The notes under the pieces are model-generated. The model made no database searches. It saw only the letters and a program-made list of their open reading frames with translations, and was not told the DNA's origin. Of a stretch of DNA of 64,000 bases, positions 27,113 through 58,422 are shown one piece after another; the stretch's first letter is position 1; every line of letters starts with the position of its first letter. This DNA is from Planctomycetota bacterium (GTDB lineage: Bacteria; Planctomycetota; B15-G4; SIAN01), in assembly GCA_028289345.1 (NCBI GenBank), contig JANQQL010000010.1, positions 372,001-436,000 on the forward strand, read 5' to 3'. The position numbers and the translations under genes are program-made.

Positions 27113-29467
27113 TCAGGGAAACTCCAGGATGACTTCGTGACTCAGGTCCCACTCAGCGACGAAAAATCGCCGAGTCCCAACGACCCCGTGAACGGCGATC
27201 CACCCGGAGCGAGGAACACTCGACAATGTGAACGTGCCATCGGGTCGCACCGAGACCCTTGACCAAGTCTCGTGGATACTCCCCCGACCGTTGGCCCCCA
27301 GCAACCAGTCGAAGCCCGTCGTGACGTGGATCGTCGTGTGGTTGCCCCCGGAGATTCTGCCGTTCACCGTTGCTGGTTCTTCTGGACGGAACTCGAGCAG
27401 TCGAGGCTCCCTCACGACCAACGGCTCCGTCACTTGCAGTCTCCCTGTGGTCGGCTGGAAAATGAGCAACGAAACGGATTCGCTCAACAGCCCCGACAGT
27501 CCAAAACCTCCCTCTGCGCTAGTCACGACGGTCAGATCGCGATCGCCGACCTCTTGCTCCAAGCTGGTCAAGATGCCTTCGATGGGCGTTGGATTCGCCA
27601 ACCCAATGCGCAGGCCGGAAAGAGAACGGCCACTCGCGTCGACCACACGACCGGAAAGCGTCCTCCCTCCGGGTTCGAGGACCAGGGTCCCCAAATCCAG
27701 GTCCCGCTTCCCCACCGTGAGTGAAGACAGCCGGCGAGGGAGGTGATGTGGTGCAATGACGAGCAGCGGAGCCGTGGTCCTTTGCCTCGCCGGCAACTGA
27801 AACTCTCCCGACTCGTTGACGCTTTCGTGAAACGGATCCCAGTGAACCTGTGCGGTGCTCAAGGGACGACCCGCGGCATCGACCACGCGACCGCGAATCG
27901 TGGGTGAGGATGCAGACCAGGGCGTGAGTTCGATGCGCAGATCCGTCGCCGCCCAGGTGGGCACGGGACCGCTCCATGGCTGATGACGGTCACTGGTGAC
28001 TCGCCAACGCGATCCTCGATGGCAGGGCACGCTCCGCAACACGAACCGTCCCGACGAGTCGCTGCGACACGGCGGGGGCTCGACAGACTGGCACTCGCCA
28101 AGGAGGGAAGGAAGCAGATCGGGTTCCCAGGTCACGGTAGCTCCCTCCACAGGGTTCCCCGCGAGGTCCACCACTTGGCCAGACAAGTCGTTGGCCGGTG
28201 CCGCAACCAGAACGCGATCCTCGGAGCCCGCAGCAACGCCGGTCGCAATCAACGTCCAGCCCGGCTCCACCACCTCAACCTCTTCGGTTTCCGACCAGGC
28301 AAGCCGCCCCGAGGAATCCGAGTGTAACTCGCGCTCGGGAATGGAAGTTCCTTGCAAGACCGCCAACCACTCTTCGGGATGGGCCTGCGCTTTGGCAAGC
28401 CGCGCGATCGCGTCAGGATCTGTCCGCCATCGAAATTGTTCTTCCAGCGTCAAACGAAGTGTGGTGATGTCGTTGCCGAGCCAGATCGGATCGCCGCCCT
28501 GCCATCGAACCGTGTGAAGGCCTCGACGTCGCAAGCGAAAGCCGGAAAGAGGAGCGCCGAAGGAATCCACCAAGCGGGCGGCCGTCATCGCCACCGCATC
28601 GGGCTCACTGTCGTTGGGAGTGGCGGGATCCATCGGCGAACCGGACATGGTTCGCGTCATCGAGTCGGCGGGCTCCCGGGATCGGCCTCCGGATCGGGAA
28701 TCCCCCGCCATCGGAGAAGCCGCTTCGGTCCCTCGAGATGCCTGACTCTCGGCAACATTCCGGACGGGCTCCACGACGATCGGATCGGCGAACCGCCGAG
28801 CCATGACTGCAACCGTGACGATCACCACCACGAAGGTCCCGCCGATCACGATGGTTCGAGCGCCGTGCTCTCCGACCCACTGCTGGCTTCCCTGGCGGCT
28901 AGAGAAGCCGTCCCCGGACTGCGACGGGGAGGATTCAAGAAGAGGACTCAGTGCAAGACACCATTGTCCTTCTCCACCGTACTCAGATTCGAGTCGGTCA
29001 CGAAGTTGGGCGCGGGCCCGCTGCAGCCGGGTCTTGATGGTTGCCAACGGCACTCCGTCGCGCTCGGCAATCTCCCGAGGAGCAAGTCCCTCCCAAAAGC
29101 GCAGCAGGATCACCCGTCGGTAAGACTCCGGCGAGGCCAGCACGTGGGCCGTCACTTCTCGCTGCATCGACGCCTTCGCGACCAGATCCTCGGTGGCGGG
29201 CAAGGGTTCCCGGAAGGCAACGGCTTGTTCCCGCTGAGCTGCTTCGTGGCGACGACGACGCCCGAGCTCCGCCAACCGACGGGCAACCGTGCGAAACCAC
29301 CCGCGGAGATTGCGAGAGTCGGTCGGACCTCGGTGCAGAGCCGCCTGCCACACTTCTTGGGCCAGGTCCTCTGCATCCGCGGCTTCTTTGACCAGTGAAC
29401 GAGCGAGGGCCTGGACCCATTCGGAGTGCTTCAACAGTTCTTCCAGGGGGATGGCGGATTCGCTCAT
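27113..29467 (-). CDS. membrane-anchored ECF sigma factor fused to carboxypeptidase-regulatory-like domains
   Basis: A 784-residue fusion. Residues about 10-75 are sigma region 2 (DAEDLAQEVWQAAL) and about 105-160 are sigma region 4 with a helix-turn-helix (LAPREIAERDGVPLATIKTR). A linker leads to a membrane segment at about 204-222 (IVIGGTFVVVIVTVAVM). The remaining 550 residues would lie outside and hold at least three carboxypeptidase-regulatory-like repeats (SGQVVDLAGNPVEGATV, RGRVVDAAGRPLSTAQV, SGRVVDASGRSLSGLRI). The sigma part may be released by proteolysis or act from the membrane (inference). No separate anti-sigma gene adjoins it. GGGAG precedes the ATG. Confidence 0.82.
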   Translation of the reverse strand: MSESAIPLEELLKHSEWVQALARSLVKEAADAEDLAQEVWQAALHRGPTDSRNLRGWFRTVARRLAELGRRRRHEAAQREQAVAFREPLPATEDLVAKASMQREVTAHVLASPESYRRVILLRFWEGLAPREIAERDGVPLATIKTRLQRARAQLRDRLESEYGGEGQWCLALSPLLESSPSQSGDGFSSRQGSQQWVGEHGARTIVIGGTFVVVIVTVAVMARRFADPIVVEPVRNVAESQASRGTEAASPMAGDSRSGGRSREPADSMTRTMSGSPMDPATPNDSEPDAVAMTAARLVDSFGAPLSGFRLRRRGLHTVRWQGGDPIWLGNDITTLRLTLEEQFRWRTDPDAIARLAKAQAHPEEWLAVLQGTSIPERELHSDSSGRLAWSETEEVEVVEPGWTLIATGVAAGSEDRVLVAAPANDLSGQVVDLAGNPVEGATVTWEPDLLPSLLGECQSVEPPPCRSDSSGRFVLRSVPCHRGSRWRVTSDRHQPWSGPVPTWAATDLRIELTPWSASSPTIRGRVVDAAGRPLSTAQVHWDPFHESVNESGEFQLPARQRTTAPLLVIAPHHLPRRLSSLTVGKRDLDLGTLVLEPGGRTLSGRVVDASGRSLSGLRIGLANPTPIEGILTSLEQEVGDRDLTVVTSAEGGFGLSGLLSESVSLLIFQPTTGRLQVTEPLVVREPRLLEFRPEEPATVNGRISGGNHTTIHVTTGFDWLLGANGRGSIHETWSRVSVRPDGTFTLSSVPRSGWIAVHGVVGTRRFFVAEWDLSHEVILEFP

Positions 29468-29608: not shown

Positions 29609-31375
29609 ATGCTCGGTCCTTCGTTTCTGATTTGCTGCCCCTTGATCGCCGCGTTCCTGACCGAGGAACTGCCCGTCGAATGGTCCACGCCGGTCGGGGA
29701 GGGATTCTCCCGCCCCGTCGCAGCCCAAAACAGTGTCTACGTCAGCGACCGCGTCCCCGGCTCATCCCAATCCGGAGTGGTTGCCGTGGATCTAGGCACC
29801 GGGGAAGTGCTTTGGCGCACCGCGTTCGAAGACTCTCCGAAACCCAGTCAGGAGAACTACGGCGGAGGACTCGGTCCCCACGCAACTCCCGCGGTCGACG
29901 AAACCCGAGTCTATGCCTTGGGGTTCAGCGGCACTCTGGTGGCCGTGGAGCGTCGCTCGGGCTCGATCCAATGGTCGGTGGACCTTGTGAAAGATCACGG
30001 CGCCAAGCCCGTTCAGTTTGGGTTCGGAGCGAGTCCGATTCGACACCGTGACCTGTTGTGTGTCATGGCCGGCGGCACGTCGGGTGTCATGGCCCTCGAG
30101 CCAGAGACCGGGGAAACCATCTGGCAGTCCCCTCCCTTCCAAGCCAGCTACGTCACCCCAGAAGTCGTTTCCTTTCAAGGGGAAGCCCAATTGGTCTGCT
30201 TGTTCGAGAGCGAGACCGTCGGCCTCGATCTCGACGACGGCGAAGTTCTTTGGAGCGTCCCTCATGTTCGCCCGGGTCTGACCAACTACGCCATGCTTCA
30301 CTCACTCGACGAGGGAGGGTTGATTGTGTCGGGCCAAGGCAATTTGGGCACTCGTTGTCTGGATGTCGCGCGAAACAAAGAACGCTGGGACGCCACGGTT
30401 CGATGGCACGCTCGTGCGGTGCGCTTCTCTCACGGAAGAATCATCGAGCGAAACGGGTTCCTGTTCGGAAGCAACGGTTCGATGCTGTGTGCCTTGGCGA
30501 CCCGGGATGGTGCCTTGGCGTTCAAACTCCGCGGCTTCGGGGAATTCAACTTGGTGAACGCGGAGGATTGCACGGTGCAAGTGGACGAAGAAGGGACTTT
30601 GGCTTTGCTCGACGTGAATGCGGAGCGCGTCCTTGTCACTCGAGAACTCCCCCTCCTCCAAGCGAAGGCCTGGGCCAGTCCAACCCTCGCAAATCGGAGG
30701 CTCCTTGCCCGCGATGCAGAACAGCTGGTCGCCCTGCGTCTCCCAGAAAACCTCGCGCCAGCGACCGCGCTGCGTTCGATCGAAACGGGATACCAACCGG
30801 GGAAGCCCGTGGTGCCACCTGCGTTGCTCGCGTACTGCGAAGGTGACTATCGGGACGATGAGGGAGCCCGATGGACGCTCGAGCTGAAGGGAGATTCACT
30901 GCGCGGAAGGATCCCGAGCAGGCCGAAAGACATTCTGTTCACCCCTCGTTCCGAGAACCAGTTCACGGACTCGGCCGGGGGAACCCTGGAGGTCCATCGC
31001 TCGGAGACGGGCGTCCCCGACTCGATCGAGTGGCAACCGGCCGAAGGCCCGGTCGTTCGCGCCCGCAAAGTCGCCCGCGCGCAGAATCCGGTGGAAATCA
31101 AGATCGCCGAACGGTGGCTGGGCCGCTGGTCCGTGGACGGTTCCATGATCGTCGAGTTCCAACACGATCAAGACCAGCTGGTCGCACGCGCCAGCGTCTA
31201 CGACGGAGTCATCTTCGCCGTCACCCAAGAGTCCCCCACTCGGCTCTGGCTGGAAGCTCAGAACGCCACTTATGGGATTCCAGACATTCTCTTGGTCCAG
31301 CAAGACGACCAACGCTGGGCCCATCAAGCCACGAACACCTACCAGGTCTCGCGCGCCTTGAAAGAGGATGACTAG
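29609..31375 (+). CDS. secreted PQQ-like beta-propeller protein
   Basis: A 588-residue protein. A short hydrophobic start is followed by PQQ-like blades over residues about 20-390 (GVVAVDLGTGEVLWR, GVMALEPETGETIW, VGLDLDDGEVLW). Residues about 400-588 form a beta-rich, uncharacterised C-terminal module with two similar halves (GDYRDDEGARWTLELKGD and GRWSVDGSMIVEFQHDQD), which look like lipocalin-like substrate-free barrels. The role is probably binding at the cell surface or in the periplasm (inference). AGGAG stands seven bases before the ATG. Confidence 0.8.
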   Translation: MLGPSFLICCPLIAAFLTEELPVEWSTPVGEGFSRPVAAQNSVYVSDRVPGSSQSGVVAVDLGTGEVLWRTAFEDSPKPSQENYGGGLGPHATPAVDETRVYALGFSGTLVAVERRSGSIQWSVDLVKDHGAKPVQFGFGASPIRHRDLLCVMAGGTSGVMALEPETGETIWQSPPFQASYVTPEVVSFQGEAQLVCLFESETVGLDLDDGEVLWSVPHVRPGLTNYAMLHSLDEGGLIVSGQGNLGTRCLDVARNKERWDATVRWHARAVRFSHGRIIERNGFLFGSNGSMLCALATRDGALAFKLRGFGEFNLVNAEDCTVQVDEEGTLALLDVNAERVLVTRELPLLQAKAWASPTLANRRLLARDAEQLVALRLPENLAPATALRSIETGYQPGKPVVPPALLAYCEGDYRDDEGARWTLELKGDSLRGRIPSRPKDILFTPRSENQFTDSAGGTLEVHRSETGVPDSIEWQPAEGPVVRARKVARAQNPVEIKIAERWLGRWSVDGSMIVEFQHDQDQLVARASVYDGVIFAVTQESPTRLWLEAQNATYGIPDILLVQQDDQRWAHQATNTYQVSRALKEDD

Positions 31376-35289: not shown

Positions 35290-35889
35290 GTGAAGAGATC
35301 CGACCCCCCCCATCCGCCGTCCGCCTTTGAAGGAGAGAACGACCCGGAGCTCACCCGTTGGATCGACCTGATGTGCAACGGAGATCGCTCTGCCTCGGAA
35401 CTCGTGGCGCGAGTGCTGTACGAGACCTTCCACGCTCGTGCCAAGAGCTACCTCTCGGGGGAGTCCGGCGACTTCACTTTGCAGCCCACAGACCTGGTCA
35501 ACGAGGCCTATCTGCGCATGGCCAAGGTCTCCCAGCCCCAGTACCAAGACCGGCATCACTTCATTGCGACCGCCGCGACGGCCATGCGCCGAGTGCTGCT
35601 CGACCACATTCGGAATCGCAAGGCTCAGAAGCGCAAAGCGTCCGGAGTCCAGGTTCCTCTCGACCGACTCACCGCCGAGTTTGAGAACCGAGCGGTGGAT
35701 CTCGATGCATTGGACACCGCCCTCGAGAAGCTGAAGAAGTTCGATCCGCTGATGTCCAAAGCCGTCGAGTTGCGCTTCTTTCTTGGCTTGTCGCTGAATG
35801 AAACCGCCGAGGCGCTCGAGGTGCCAGCACGGACGATCAGCCGCAAATGGTCGCTGACCAAGTCGTGGCTTCACAGGGAACTTTCATGA
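35290..35889 (+). CDS. ECF-type RNA polymerase sigma factor
   Basis: A 199-residue ECF sigma factor with region 2 (DFTLQPTDLVNEAYLRM, HHFIATAATAMRRVLLDHIR) and region 4 (LSLNETAEALEVPARTISRKW). The TLQPTDLVNEAYLRM sequence marks the ECF subgroup that in planctomycetes and acidobacteria is encoded next to Ser/Thr kinases. No anti-sigma gene is present. It starts with GTG and overlaps the kinase start by four bases (ATGA), so the kinase probably controls it by phosphorylation (inference from the family). Confidence 0.9.
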   Translation: MKRSDPPHPPSAFEGENDPELTRWIDLMCNGDRSASELVARVLYETFHARAKSYLSGESGDFTLQPTDLVNEAYLRMAKVSQPQYQDRHHFIATAATAMRRVLLDHIRNRKAQKRKASGVQVPLDRLTAEFENRAVDLDALDTALEKLKKFDPLMSKAVELRFFLGLSLNETAEALEVPARTISRKWSLTKSWLHRELS

Positions 35890-38048
35890 ATCCGGATTCT
35901 TGGGAGAGACTGGCGGAACTCTTTGAGCGACTTCAGGAATTGCCGGAAGAGGAACACGAGTCCTTCCTCGCCACCCACTGTTCCGAGGACCCATCGCTCG
36001 CGGACGAGCTGCGCAGCATGCTCCGCCACTCCCAAGCCCAGGAGTCGGGCTTTCTGAAGAATCCCTTTCCTCAACCGCCGCCGGTCAACAAGAACCGGGA
36101 AGGAAGTGTTCTCGGCGACTTCGTCTTGGGCCGCAAGATCGGCAGTGGCGGAATGGGCGATGTTTACCAGGCCGAGCAGAAGCCGTTCGGGCGCCCGGTT
36201 GCCGTGAAGATCCTTCACTCACTCACCTCGGATCTGTCTTCCGCGGAACGCTTCCGGCGAGAAGCCCAAGCGGCAATGCGCCTGAATCACCCGAACATCG
36301 TCTCGATCATCTCGTACCAGGTGGAAGACGGCGACGCCTACTATGCGATGCAGCTCATCAAAGGGCAGAGCCTCGCTGACTACTTGAATGACGTTCGCAA
36401 GGACCCGAACGCCGCCTGGACTTCACGGGAAGCCGCGGATCGCGTGGCGAAGATTGCCGATGCGTTGGATCATGCCCACCAAAACGGCGTCATCCACCGC
36501 GACGTCAAGCCAGCAAACATCCTGATCGGGCAAGAGGGAACTCCGTATCTTGCGGACTTTGGAATCGCTCGGGATGAGCGAAATGAAACCATCACAGATG
36601 CTGGACAGATTCCCGGCACCGTTCGCTACATGAGCCCCGAACAAGCGCGCATCCTTCAGCTCAATGTCGATCACCGGACCGACGTGTATTCCCTCGGTGC
36701 AGTCCTTTACGAAATCCTCGCCGGTGTGCCGGCCATCCCCGGAACCGAAACGGCCGAGATCCTCGCCAATCTGCAACGAAACGAACCACCACTCGTTCGC
36801 AAACACCGGCCAGGAATCCCCAGCACTCTGACGGAAATCTGCTGGAAAGCACTCCGCCGCGACCCCGACGACCGCTACGGCTCCGCCGCCGAAATGGCTG
36901 CGGACTTGCGCGCGTTCGTGGCTGGAGGGACGGTGTCCTTCCGCTTCCGCCGGCTGTCCTCGGGAGCGCACCGTGCTTGCCGGAAGTACTCGCTCCCGGC
37001 ACTGGCCACCACGGCCCTCCTCTTCGCCGCGTATCAGTTCATGGAATCGAAGAGTGCCACAGCATTCGCTTCCATGGTTGAAATCGAAACACCACCCGGC
37101 GTGAAAGAAACCTACTGGCAGCCGTGTCGGACCGTCCCGGGGTTGTTGGACCCGCCCGAGAAGCTGGCGTTCGACGGCAACACCAGCCAACAGCGGGTCA
37201 TCGACAGCCACTTCGCTCGGCTGACTCTGGTGGACCAAGAAGGAACTCTGCGCGAACTCCTTCGATGGATCGAACCCGGAGAGAGGTTGTCTCTTCCGCC
37301 CGTGACTTCCCAGCGAATGCCTTTGCCGATGAGCAAGATTCCGGCTGGCTCGCTGCAACTGTCTTACTTTGCAATGTCAAATGGCGCTCCGGACAAGATG
37401 TCCCAAGAGGTGCCTTACTCAGGCTTCTCGATCATGCGCCACCCGGTCACCAATCGACAGTTCTTCCGGTTCTTGGAATCTGCGGACCCCGAGCTGCTCG
37501 CCACCTGGAAACCCTGGGACGGGAACGAGCCAGAGTCCCAAGACTGGTGGGAACGGCCGGCCACAGGGATGAGTTGGCAGTCGGCACAGGACTTCGCGGA
37601 GTCCTTCGGCATGCGCCTCCCCACCCTGGTCGAGTGGCAGGTCGCGATGGGCGCCGGACAAGTGAATTGGAACGAAGAAGATTTCGACCAGTTCGTCCTC
37701 GACCGCCCGGAAGTCCTCGAGGTGAATGGCGTTCCTTCCACCCGTGCCGCCTACTTGCAGTTCACGGAGGCGGCGGTCACTTCCGGACACGGCCCTCATC
37801 AAATGAGTCATCCCGTTGGCAACGTCATGGAATGGGTGGCGTCGGCCGTGCCCTACGTCCACGAACCGGGTCGCCCACCCGCATGGGACCGCTTCCAGCG
37901 CTACATCGTCGGCACTGCATGGCACTACCGTCGCAGCCATCTCCCCAAAGACCCCGCTCGAAAACTGAGTTTCGCGAACGCTAGCCAGGCTTCATACGAC
38001 ATCGGGTTTCGATGTGCTCACAGTCTGGACATTCCCGATTCACGTTGA
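35886..38048 (+). CDS. Ser/Thr protein kinase with C-terminal SUMF1/FGE-like domain
   Basis: A 720-residue protein. A short leader typical of planctomycete kinases is followed by a Hanks-type kinase at about 80-350: glycine loop IGSGGMG, Lys in VAVKIL, HRDVKPANIL, DFG, then MSPEQA. A membrane segment lies near 380-395 (LPALATTALLFAAYQF). The C-terminal half ends in a formylglycine-generating-enzyme-like domain (PVTNRQFFRFLE, MRLPTLVEWQVA, VGNVMEWVAS, GFRCA) exposed outside. Such domains in kinases usually bind ligands instead of oxidising sulfatases. The kinase start overlaps the sigma gene stop. Confidence 0.9.
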   Translation: MNPDSWERLAELFERLQELPEEEHESFLATHCSEDPSLADELRSMLRHSQAQESGFLKNPFPQPPPVNKNREGSVLGDFVLGRKIGSGGMGDVYQAEQKPFGRPVAVKILHSLTSDLSSAERFRREAQAAMRLNHPNIVSIISYQVEDGDAYYAMQLIKGQSLADYLNDVRKDPNAAWTSREAADRVAKIADALDHAHQNGVIHRDVKPANILIGQEGTPYLADFGIARDERNETITDAGQIPGTVRYMSPEQARILQLNVDHRTDVYSLGAVLYEILAGVPAIPGTETAEILANLQRNEPPLVRKHRPGIPSTLTEICWKALRRDPDDRYGSAAEMAADLRAFVAGGTVSFRFRRLSSGAHRACRKYSLPALATTALLFAAYQFMESKSATAFASMVEIETPPGVKETYWQPCRTVPGLLDPPEKLAFDGNTSQQRVIDSHFARLTLVDQEGTLRELLRWIEPGERLSLPPVTSQRMPLPMSKIPAGSLQLSYFAMSNGAPDKMSQEVPYSGFSIMRHPVTNRQFFRFLESADPELLATWKPWDGNEPESQDWWERPATGMSWQSAQDFAESFGMRLPTLVEWQVAMGAGQVNWNEEDFDQFVLDRPEVLEVNGVPSTRAAYLQFTEAAVTSGHGPHQMSHPVGNVMEWVASAVPYVHEPGRPPAWDRFQRYIVGTAWHYRRSHLPKDPARKLSFANASQASYDIGFRCAHSLDIPDSR

Positions 38049-57282: not shown

Positions 57283-58422
57283 TCAGGATCGAACGCCTCG
57301 GGAGCCTCCCTCTCGCTTTGCCGAATCACTTTGTCCCCGGCTCTCTTGATGCGTGGTCAAAGCCCGTTCCAGTTCGACGAATCTTCCAAGTAACGAAAAG
57401 CCGATGGTGCCAAGGAGTCGTTGATCTTCCACCACGAACAGCGGACCCTCACCGGCTAGGATCTTCGGCAGGCAGGAGTCGATGAGCTCTTCCGGGGCCG
57501 CTTGTCGAAACTCCGTTTCCATGAATTCGGAAACCGGCGGCTCGAACCCGAACTGGGTCACCGCACGCATCAACACAGGATGAGGAAGAACGCCAAGCAG
57601 TCGGTAGCCCGAGTCCACCACCGGCATCGCTTCCCGACCGTTTCGGAGCGACGACAAAGCCGCGGCTCCCAAAGAGTGGTTCGCAAACAAGACCGTTCGG
57701 GGTGGGACGAAAAGCTCGTGCAATCGCCGCCCCGCTACCTCGGAAGTCATTTCGACCGCACGCAGCTCTGCCGTTCCTGCAATCCACAAGAAGACCGCAA
57801 TCAGAATCAGCATGGGGCTCTGAACCAGTCCCAGAAGGGCCAGTCCCACGCACAGCGTCCGACCGAGGAACACCGCCGCCCGAGTGGCGCGCCGCCTTCC
57901 GAAGCGAATGCTCAGCAGCGCTCGCAACACCCGGCCGCCGTCCAAGGGAAACGCGGGAAGAAGATTCAACGCGGCCACCAGCACATTCGCCACGAGCAAA
58001 CGACCAGCGAAAGATTCCGCGAGACGTTCGAGCTGCCAAGCAGCACTGCTGTTCGTCAGGAAAACGACCCCCGCAAGGAGCAGCGCGATCCCCACGTTCA
58101 CCGCGGGCCCGGCCAGCGCGACCACGACCTCTTGGCCCGGCTTGCGAGGCATTCGCTCGAGGCGAGCAACTCCGCCGATTGGCGAAAGAACGATGTCTTT
58201 GGTCGCGATGCCGAACCGACGTGCGGTCAAGGCGTGGCCGAACTCGTGCAGCAGCACGCACCCGAACACGGCGATCATCAACGAGAGCCCGCCCAGGATG
58301 GTGGGCAAGCTGGCCCCGGCCAGCCATGCCGAAACCCCAAGAAGACCAAGAGTCAGCCAAAGAGTCGCGTGGATGAAGACGTCGATCCCGGCCAACCGGC
58401 CGAGCTTCCAAGCGTGGCGCAT
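57283..58422 (-). CDS. site-2 protease family (M50) metalloprotease with CBS domains
   Basis: A 379-residue membrane metalloprotease. HEFGH (residues 59-63) and NLLPAFPLDGGR with Asp160 provide the zinc site. About six membrane segments follow. The C-terminal 130 residues contain two CBS-like modules, as in the SpoIVFB/Rip3-type group. These enzymes cleave membrane-bound regulators within the membrane. No substrate is known; the membrane-anchored sigma factor at 27113 is one possible type of target (speculation). It converges with folE. Confidence 0.88.
   Translation of the reverse strand: MRHAWKLGRLAGIDVFIHATLWLTLGLLGVSAWLAGASLPTILGGLSLMIAVFGCVLLHEFGHALTARRFGIATKDIVLSPIGGVARLERMPRKPGQEVVVALAGPAVNVGIALLLAGVVFLTNSSAAWQLERLAESFAGRLLVANVLVAALNLLPAFPLDGGRVLRALLSIRFGRRRATRAAVFLGRTLCVGLALLGLVQSPMLILIAVFLWIAGTAELRAVEMTSEVAGRRLHELFVPPRTVLFANHSLGAAALSSLRNGREAMPVVDSGYRLLGVLPHPVLMRAVTQFGFEPPVSEFMETEFRQAAPEELIDSCLPKILAGEGPLFVVEDQRLLGTIGFSLLGRFVELERALTTHQESRGQSDSAKREGGSRGVRS

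Follow-up and report, generated by a model that had tools for sequence, protein, structure and literature searches.

ECF sigma factors usually work with a separate anti-sigma factor that serves as the membrane sensor. A gene on the minus strand of the DNA analysed here, a 64,000-nucleotide stretch of a Planctomycetota genome (the window), raises the question of whether a single chain can be both sensor and sigma factor, and what would then hold the sigma part off. The first-pass annotation had placed sigma regions 2 and 4, a membrane segment and outside domains in one chain, and this arrangement is borne out by an unbroken open reading frame (ATG start, 784 aa, zero internal stops), by Pfam and by a predicted helix (Table 1). 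Both Pfam sigma matches, Sigma70_r2 (residues 13–67) and Sigma70_r4_2 (residues 113–155), lie over cut-off; sigma2 and sigma4 are the only sigma regions found, each above its curated cut-off, which places the protein among the ECF (group 4) sigma factors. Residues 205–223 form the sole hydrophobic segment (mean Kyte-Doolittle 2.54). In an AlphaFold model built with 48 relatives as alignment, the sigma core adopts a confident two-domain fold (residues 8–163, mostly pLDDT >90), followed by short helices at 168–177, a helix at 209–225 and strands from about residue 295, with low confidence at 182–211 and 224–291; mean pLDDT is 74 and pTM 0.47, so the relative placement of the domains is unreliable. 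Foldseek searches against the PDB match the sigma part to the ECF factors SigE, SigH and SigW; for the beta part, the matches are pilins and the B domains of SdrD. CarboxypepD_reg is matched (3.7e-18) in three stretches, the best at residues 428–501 (27965–28186). The earlier description of about 550 residues of carboxypeptidase-regulatory-like repeats does not hold for all 561 post-helix residues, of which about 224–291 form a disordered stalk. Judged from its sequence, the window protein belongs to a large Planctomycetota family of one-chain ECF sigma factors tethered to the membrane.

Table 1. Parts of the fusion gene, in window coordinates
Feature	Position	Strand	Basis
Entire gene (784 aa), from the ECF sigma part through membrane helix and stalk to the outside beta domains	27113..29467	-	ORF, Pfam, hydropathy, AlphaFold
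Sigma region 2 (model residues 8–84; Pfam 13–67)	29216..29446	-	PF04542 2e-8; AlphaFold pLDDT mostly >90
Sigma region 4 (residues 92–163)	28979..29194	-	PF08281 5.5e-11; model pLDDT >90
Conserved element after sigma4 (residues 164–178; family motif GGDRRxWxxALxPLA)	28934..28978	-	W in 77/98 at the aligned column; short helices 168–172, 174–177
Variable cytoplasmic linker without zinc motif (residues 179–204)	28856..28933	-	Motif scan; pLDDT ~40
GGAG in codons G199-E200, position of the family's internal Shine-Dalgarno	28870..28873	-	Codon 8 nt on is GCT
Membrane helix (residues 205–223)	28799..28855	-	Hydropathy; AlphaFold helix 209–225
Extracytoplasmic stalk, disordered (residues 224–291)	28595..28798	-	pLDDT ~35–40
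Outside-facing beta domains, CarboxypepD_reg / prealbumin-like (residues 292–784)	27116..28594	-	Pfam, AlphaFold, Foldseek

The host genome holds 132 region-2 matches in total, about 30 of which sit in long frames, mostly of 790–1200 aa, and nearly all of these long frames have one membrane helix at a roughly constant distance from region 2. Pfam matched sigma2 and sigma4 in every aligned host member (30/30) and every member of the relatives' alignment (49/49), and CarboxypepD_reg in 28 of the 30 and in 46 of the 49 rows, the window protein included. The same architecture occurs in about 70 genes from other Planctomycetota. A degenerate DNA pattern, whose matches among named genomes fall almost only in Planctomycetota or unnamed MAGs, also matches the complete chromosome of the cultured strain Pla86 (CP036296.1), and the Pla86 genome contains at least 26 long-frame fusions. 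Since the order and spacing of the parts recur in this way across paralogues, genes of other Planctomycetota and a complete chromosome, chance and a sequencing frameshift or assembly artefact are ruled out as the source of the window fusion. A search of 294 sampled Planctomycetota genomes with a profile of sigma part plus helix (E<=1e-45) returned matches in about 60 genomes (about 20%) from 24 families; the remaining genomes gave ordinary ECF-level scores or none, with a clear score gap. These counts answer how widespread the fusion is, a matter raised when the gene was first described. Outside the phylum, family members lie on scattered contigs of MAGs labelled Myxococcales, Candidatus Binatia and Deltaproteobacteria (G294, G295 and G296), with 4/113 genomes in the phylum of G294 and 1/118 in that of G295 (MAGs labelled Myxococcales and Candidatus Binatia); such occurrences represent either binning error or rare transfer.

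Sigma factors joined to outside domains by a membrane segment are already known from IutY, ECF48, ECF52 and ECF53 (PMC8999054). Like IutY of Pseudomonas putida (ECF243), which Prc and RseP release by cleavage (PMC8999054), the present proteins unite an ECF sigma core, a membrane segment and an outside part in one chain; however, IutY is fused to its FecR-type anti-sigma factor and acts in iron cell-surface signalling, whereas the family described here has no recognisable anti-sigma domain, has different outside domains and reaches tens of copies per genome. The actinobacterial ECF52, ECF53 and ECF48 (SCO4117) have a C-terminal extension with one or more membrane segments, which in ECF52 also includes an outside carbohydrate-binding domain (PMC5826349, PMC8999054). 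In these, a zinc-finger anti-sigma domain separates sigma4 from the membrane, whereas the corresponding linkers here, from another phylum, contain HxxxCxxC in 0 of 98 cases, and CarboxypepD_reg and related beta domains take the outside position held by the carbohydrate-binding domain of ECF52. ECF57 and the WD40-fused ECFs of Gemmataceae likewise form large Planctomycetota families whose C-termini extend into long beta-repeat regions (PMC8999054, PMC8567305, PMC11032199). Their repeats are WD40, and the texts consulted describe no outside architecture with a single helix for them, whereas those here are CarboxypepD_reg; Pfam found no WD40 match in the window protein or the relatives' alignment. 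One-chain ECF sensors and Planctomycetota ECFs with WD40 extensions are thus known, and the present family differs from them in its outside domains, its copy number and an internal start (below), and in having no recognisable anti-sigma domain. Our literature search found no description of the family; an earlier mention is possible in ECF-classification or Planctomycetota comparative papers outside that search (doi 10.1093/nar/gkaa1229, PMC7286433, PMC3497475). Elsewhere in the window (35290–38048, plus strand), a sigma-like gene has a Ser/Thr kinase-like gene immediately after it, a layout that resembles the kinase-linked ECFs known from Planctomycetota.

The end of sigma4 and the membrane helix are separated by a median of 39 residues (98 members), and none of these linkers contains the anti-sigma zinc motif. 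The zf-HC2 family is not among the Pfam families listed for the aligned host members or the relatives' alignment, and the window protein gave no Pfam match to an anti-sigma family up to E = 1. Anti-sigma families are also absent from the listed matches of the 52 proteins adjoining fusions; one adjoining 91-aa frame carries an HxxxCxxC motif, and no adjoining anti-sigma gene was confirmed. From the zinc-free linkers and the lack of a confirmed adjoining anti-sigma gene, we infer that tethering takes over from the anti-sigma factor, possibly helped by a conserved W-helix after sigma4. A recurrent neighbour that might be a target or regulator was not found, no family occurring in more than 3 of the 52 adjacent proteins. 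PQQ/BamB-like beta-propeller proteins account for three of these neighbours, and the divergent neighbour of the window gene (29609–31375, plus strand), 142 bp away, is of this type. Self-activation through a shared autoregulatory promoter is not supported, since dyad counts upstream of 30 host and 48 relative genes are no higher than in shuffles.

Charged residues flanking the helix are distributed unevenly across the family, with K+R averaging 2.29 before and 1.60 after it, and D+E 0.86 before and 2.50 after. This bias, with positive charge favoured ahead of the helix and negative charge behind it, together with hydropathy, leads us to expect an N-in/C-out topology. In the window gene the outside flank begins RR, opposite to the family trend, and some members have a second hydrophobic stretch upstream of the helix. 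The proposal in the first-pass annotation that sensing and transcription control reside in one molecule is supported, with zinc-free linkers and no confirmed adjoining anti-sigma gene, and the charge bias agrees with the topology it calls for.

How the sigma part is kept inactive and then activated admits several readings. The best conserved part of the linker is the motif GGDRRxWxxALxPLA straight after sigma4, and this W-helix might fold back onto the sigma core and inhibit it until a change of conformation relayed by the membrane helix lifted the inhibition, making proteolysis unnecessary. The prevalence of the tryptophan (77/98) and the short helices predicted there (pLDDT ~78–90) are what such a scheme would need, and retention of the motif in two TM-less relatives (L075 and L139) indicates that it belongs to the sigma part and not to anchoring; yet an element of 15 residues is far below the size of known anti-sigma domains, and we regard the scheme as improbable.

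One-component membrane regulators such as ToxR and CadC combine a cytoplasmic transcription-control part, one helix and an outside sensor; their layout is alike, but they are DNA-binding activators and not sigma factors. The sigma part might similarly act while membrane-bound, an outside ligand or clustering altering its shape or crowding, and RNA polymerase being recruited there without cleavage. No conserved cleavage motif was found in the family, and a linker of about 39 residues without an anti-sigma domain leaves no obvious mask on the sigma core, both of which suit such a scheme. Nevertheless, a tether would limit the promoters within reach of the sigma factor, and IutY, the sole experimentally studied fused ECF, works via cleavage (PMC8999054); membrane-bound action is accordingly, in our estimate, unlikely, though worth keeping in view.

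Release of the sigma part by proteolysis is the likely course by analogy, because IutY, the closest studied one-chain case, works in this manner (PMC8999054) and because the long disordered stalk offers a site for a first cut. The best overall explanation, which we put at even strength, would be a tethered one-chain ECF that is released by cleavage, many members also yielding a short sigma-less product. The N-terminal sigma2–sigma4 core would be cytoplasmic, the single helix would cross the membrane, and the stalk and CarboxypepD_reg-type beta domains would lie outside. Once the beta domains sense an event outside, the flexible stalk would most likely be cut first, after which a general site-2 protease would cut within the membrane helix and so free the sigma part for RNA polymerase. 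The first-pass annotation had speculated that the protease encoded at 57283 acts on the fusion. This gene does encode an M50 protease (PF02163 5.5e-23), but it lies 28 kb from the fusion and is one among several host M50 genes, another being a 675-aa frame of RseP-like size (C22:710456-712219), so that it was set aside as the cognate protease for want of linkage.

The outside parts are strongly divergent among paralogues, with a mean column identity of 16%, as diverse sensing would predict. This divergence weighs against another reading, to which we give a low probability, in which the outside part serves chiefly in surface structure or adhesion, and it is the export or assembly of this part, not a ligand, that the sigma part reports. 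That reading draws on the pilin and SdrD structural matches and on how common sigma-less anchored homologues are in the host genome: in at least 21 stand-alone frames (L224-L243) a short N-terminus precedes a helix and CarboxypepD_reg domains, with no sigma part, and one such protein shares 27.8% identity with the outside part of a fusion over 726 aa. We also considered these proteins as halves of split operons and rejected the idea, an ECF being present in only 2/20 of their loci and none lying directly upstream of L243, L238, L239 or L232. One host fusion (L047:3400-6195, L047:9250-12186 or L048:6357-8753, assigned by exclusion only) has a Pfam Beta-lactamase match (PF00144, 1.2e-56). At L085 the frame shifts past the sigma part and CarboxypepD-like sequence resumes in another frame, probably through a MAG assembly error.

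A further feature lies at the junction of sigma part and membrane helix. The alignment column before the helix holds Met, Val or Leu after Gly-(Gly/Ala/Val), and the DNA there reads GGAG, 8 nt, and an in-frame ATG, GTG or TTG; the conserved Gly is encoded by GGA in 42/77 cases vs 20% overall, and the 16S 3' end has the usual anti-Shine-Dalgarno. We defined a strict internal start as GGAG with a spacing of 7–9, located between -18 and +5 codons of the helix, and compared counts with a null in which synonymous codons were permuted within each gene (400 permutations). Strict sites occur in 7/32 host fusions (null 1.9), 7/24 in Pla86 (null 0.8), 22/67 relatives (null 4.4) and 13/40 of a later set (null 3.3), the last being the only independent check, as the definition was fixed after the first three sets. 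Each count was reached by 0/400 permutations (each p<=0.0025), giving 49/163 fusions over all sets (L069-L148, L244-L303 and the host fusions) and establishing the site statistically. A looser definition is significant in the relatives and Pla86, not in the host genome (9/32 vs 6.3). The density of sites at the junction is more than 10-fold above that in the rest of the gene. As a control, 5/99 other genes with an internal first helix carry the site, against 49/163 fusions (p=3e-7), and most of these five look like true starts of exported proteins within over-long frames.

The GGAG before the helix might alternatively mark a translation pause that aids membrane targeting, pauses ahead of membrane segments having been described in E. 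coli (PMC4359368). We consider this very unlikely: the codon exactly 8 nt past an in-phase GGAG near the helix is most often a start codon (26 ATG, 21 GTG and 9 TTG), whereas start codons make up about 6.5% elsewhere, the pattern is missing from other genes with internal membrane helices, and neither a start codon nor an MxxK run would be necessary for pausing. We return to the internal start, whose translation and role we infer. The site probably gives a second, anchored, sigma-less product in many members, and the layout of this predicted product is that of the stand-alone anchored CarboxypepD_reg proteins of the host. The window gene is an exception: its GGAG is kept, the start codon is missing (GCT) and the internal start is not intact, so the claim applies to the family and not to this gene.

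That many members of the family are two-product genes, in which one frame encodes the chain of sigma factor, anchor and sensor and, from the conserved internal start at the junction, also an anchored sensor without sigma part that tunes this chain, is a proposal we judge somewhat more probable than its negation. The short form could share a ligand or partner with the sigma-bearing form and so set its sensitivity. If this is true, making the sensor also alone from the same gene would be a simple built-in dose control, which to our knowledge is not known for sigma factors; the internal start as found here, of which we know no earlier description, is part of what is new in the family. Single genes of two-polypeptide phage endolysins use an in-frame internal start to make a full-length and a C-terminal polypeptide, which are able to assemble (PMC9430671); these are unrelated enzymes, and the likeness is in coding strategy only.

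If the overall scheme holds, dozens of one-gene sensor sets per genome would replace sigma/anti-sigma pairs in part of the Planctomycetota. With some 25–30 genes per genome combining sensor and sigma factor without a recognisable anti-sigma domain, the mechanism of the off state becomes directly testable, and because the cultured Pla86, with its complete genome, carries the family, both this and the internal start can be addressed at the bench.

A tree of 97 sigma domains, with plain ECFs taken from the host genome only, speaks to the origin of the fusions. Fifty-two fused rows (29 host fusions and 23 from relatives) fall into one clade with support 97/97 and zero plain ECFs inside, and three more host fusions (L029, L032 and L034) group with a plain ECF elsewhere in the tree (support 98/92); the bootstrap had not settled, and inner branches are mostly without resolution. 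The grouping of these three with a plain ECF suggests that a like architecture arose on a different sigma lineage by independent fusion, and on the simplest reading of the tree fusion would have occurred twice, with a large, old expansion afterwards. Two host variants in the main sigma clade depart from the common layout: L019:8205-9521 lacks an outside domain and, with about six helices predicted to lie in the membrane, is a polytopic sigma factor, and L011 has a short C-terminal part.
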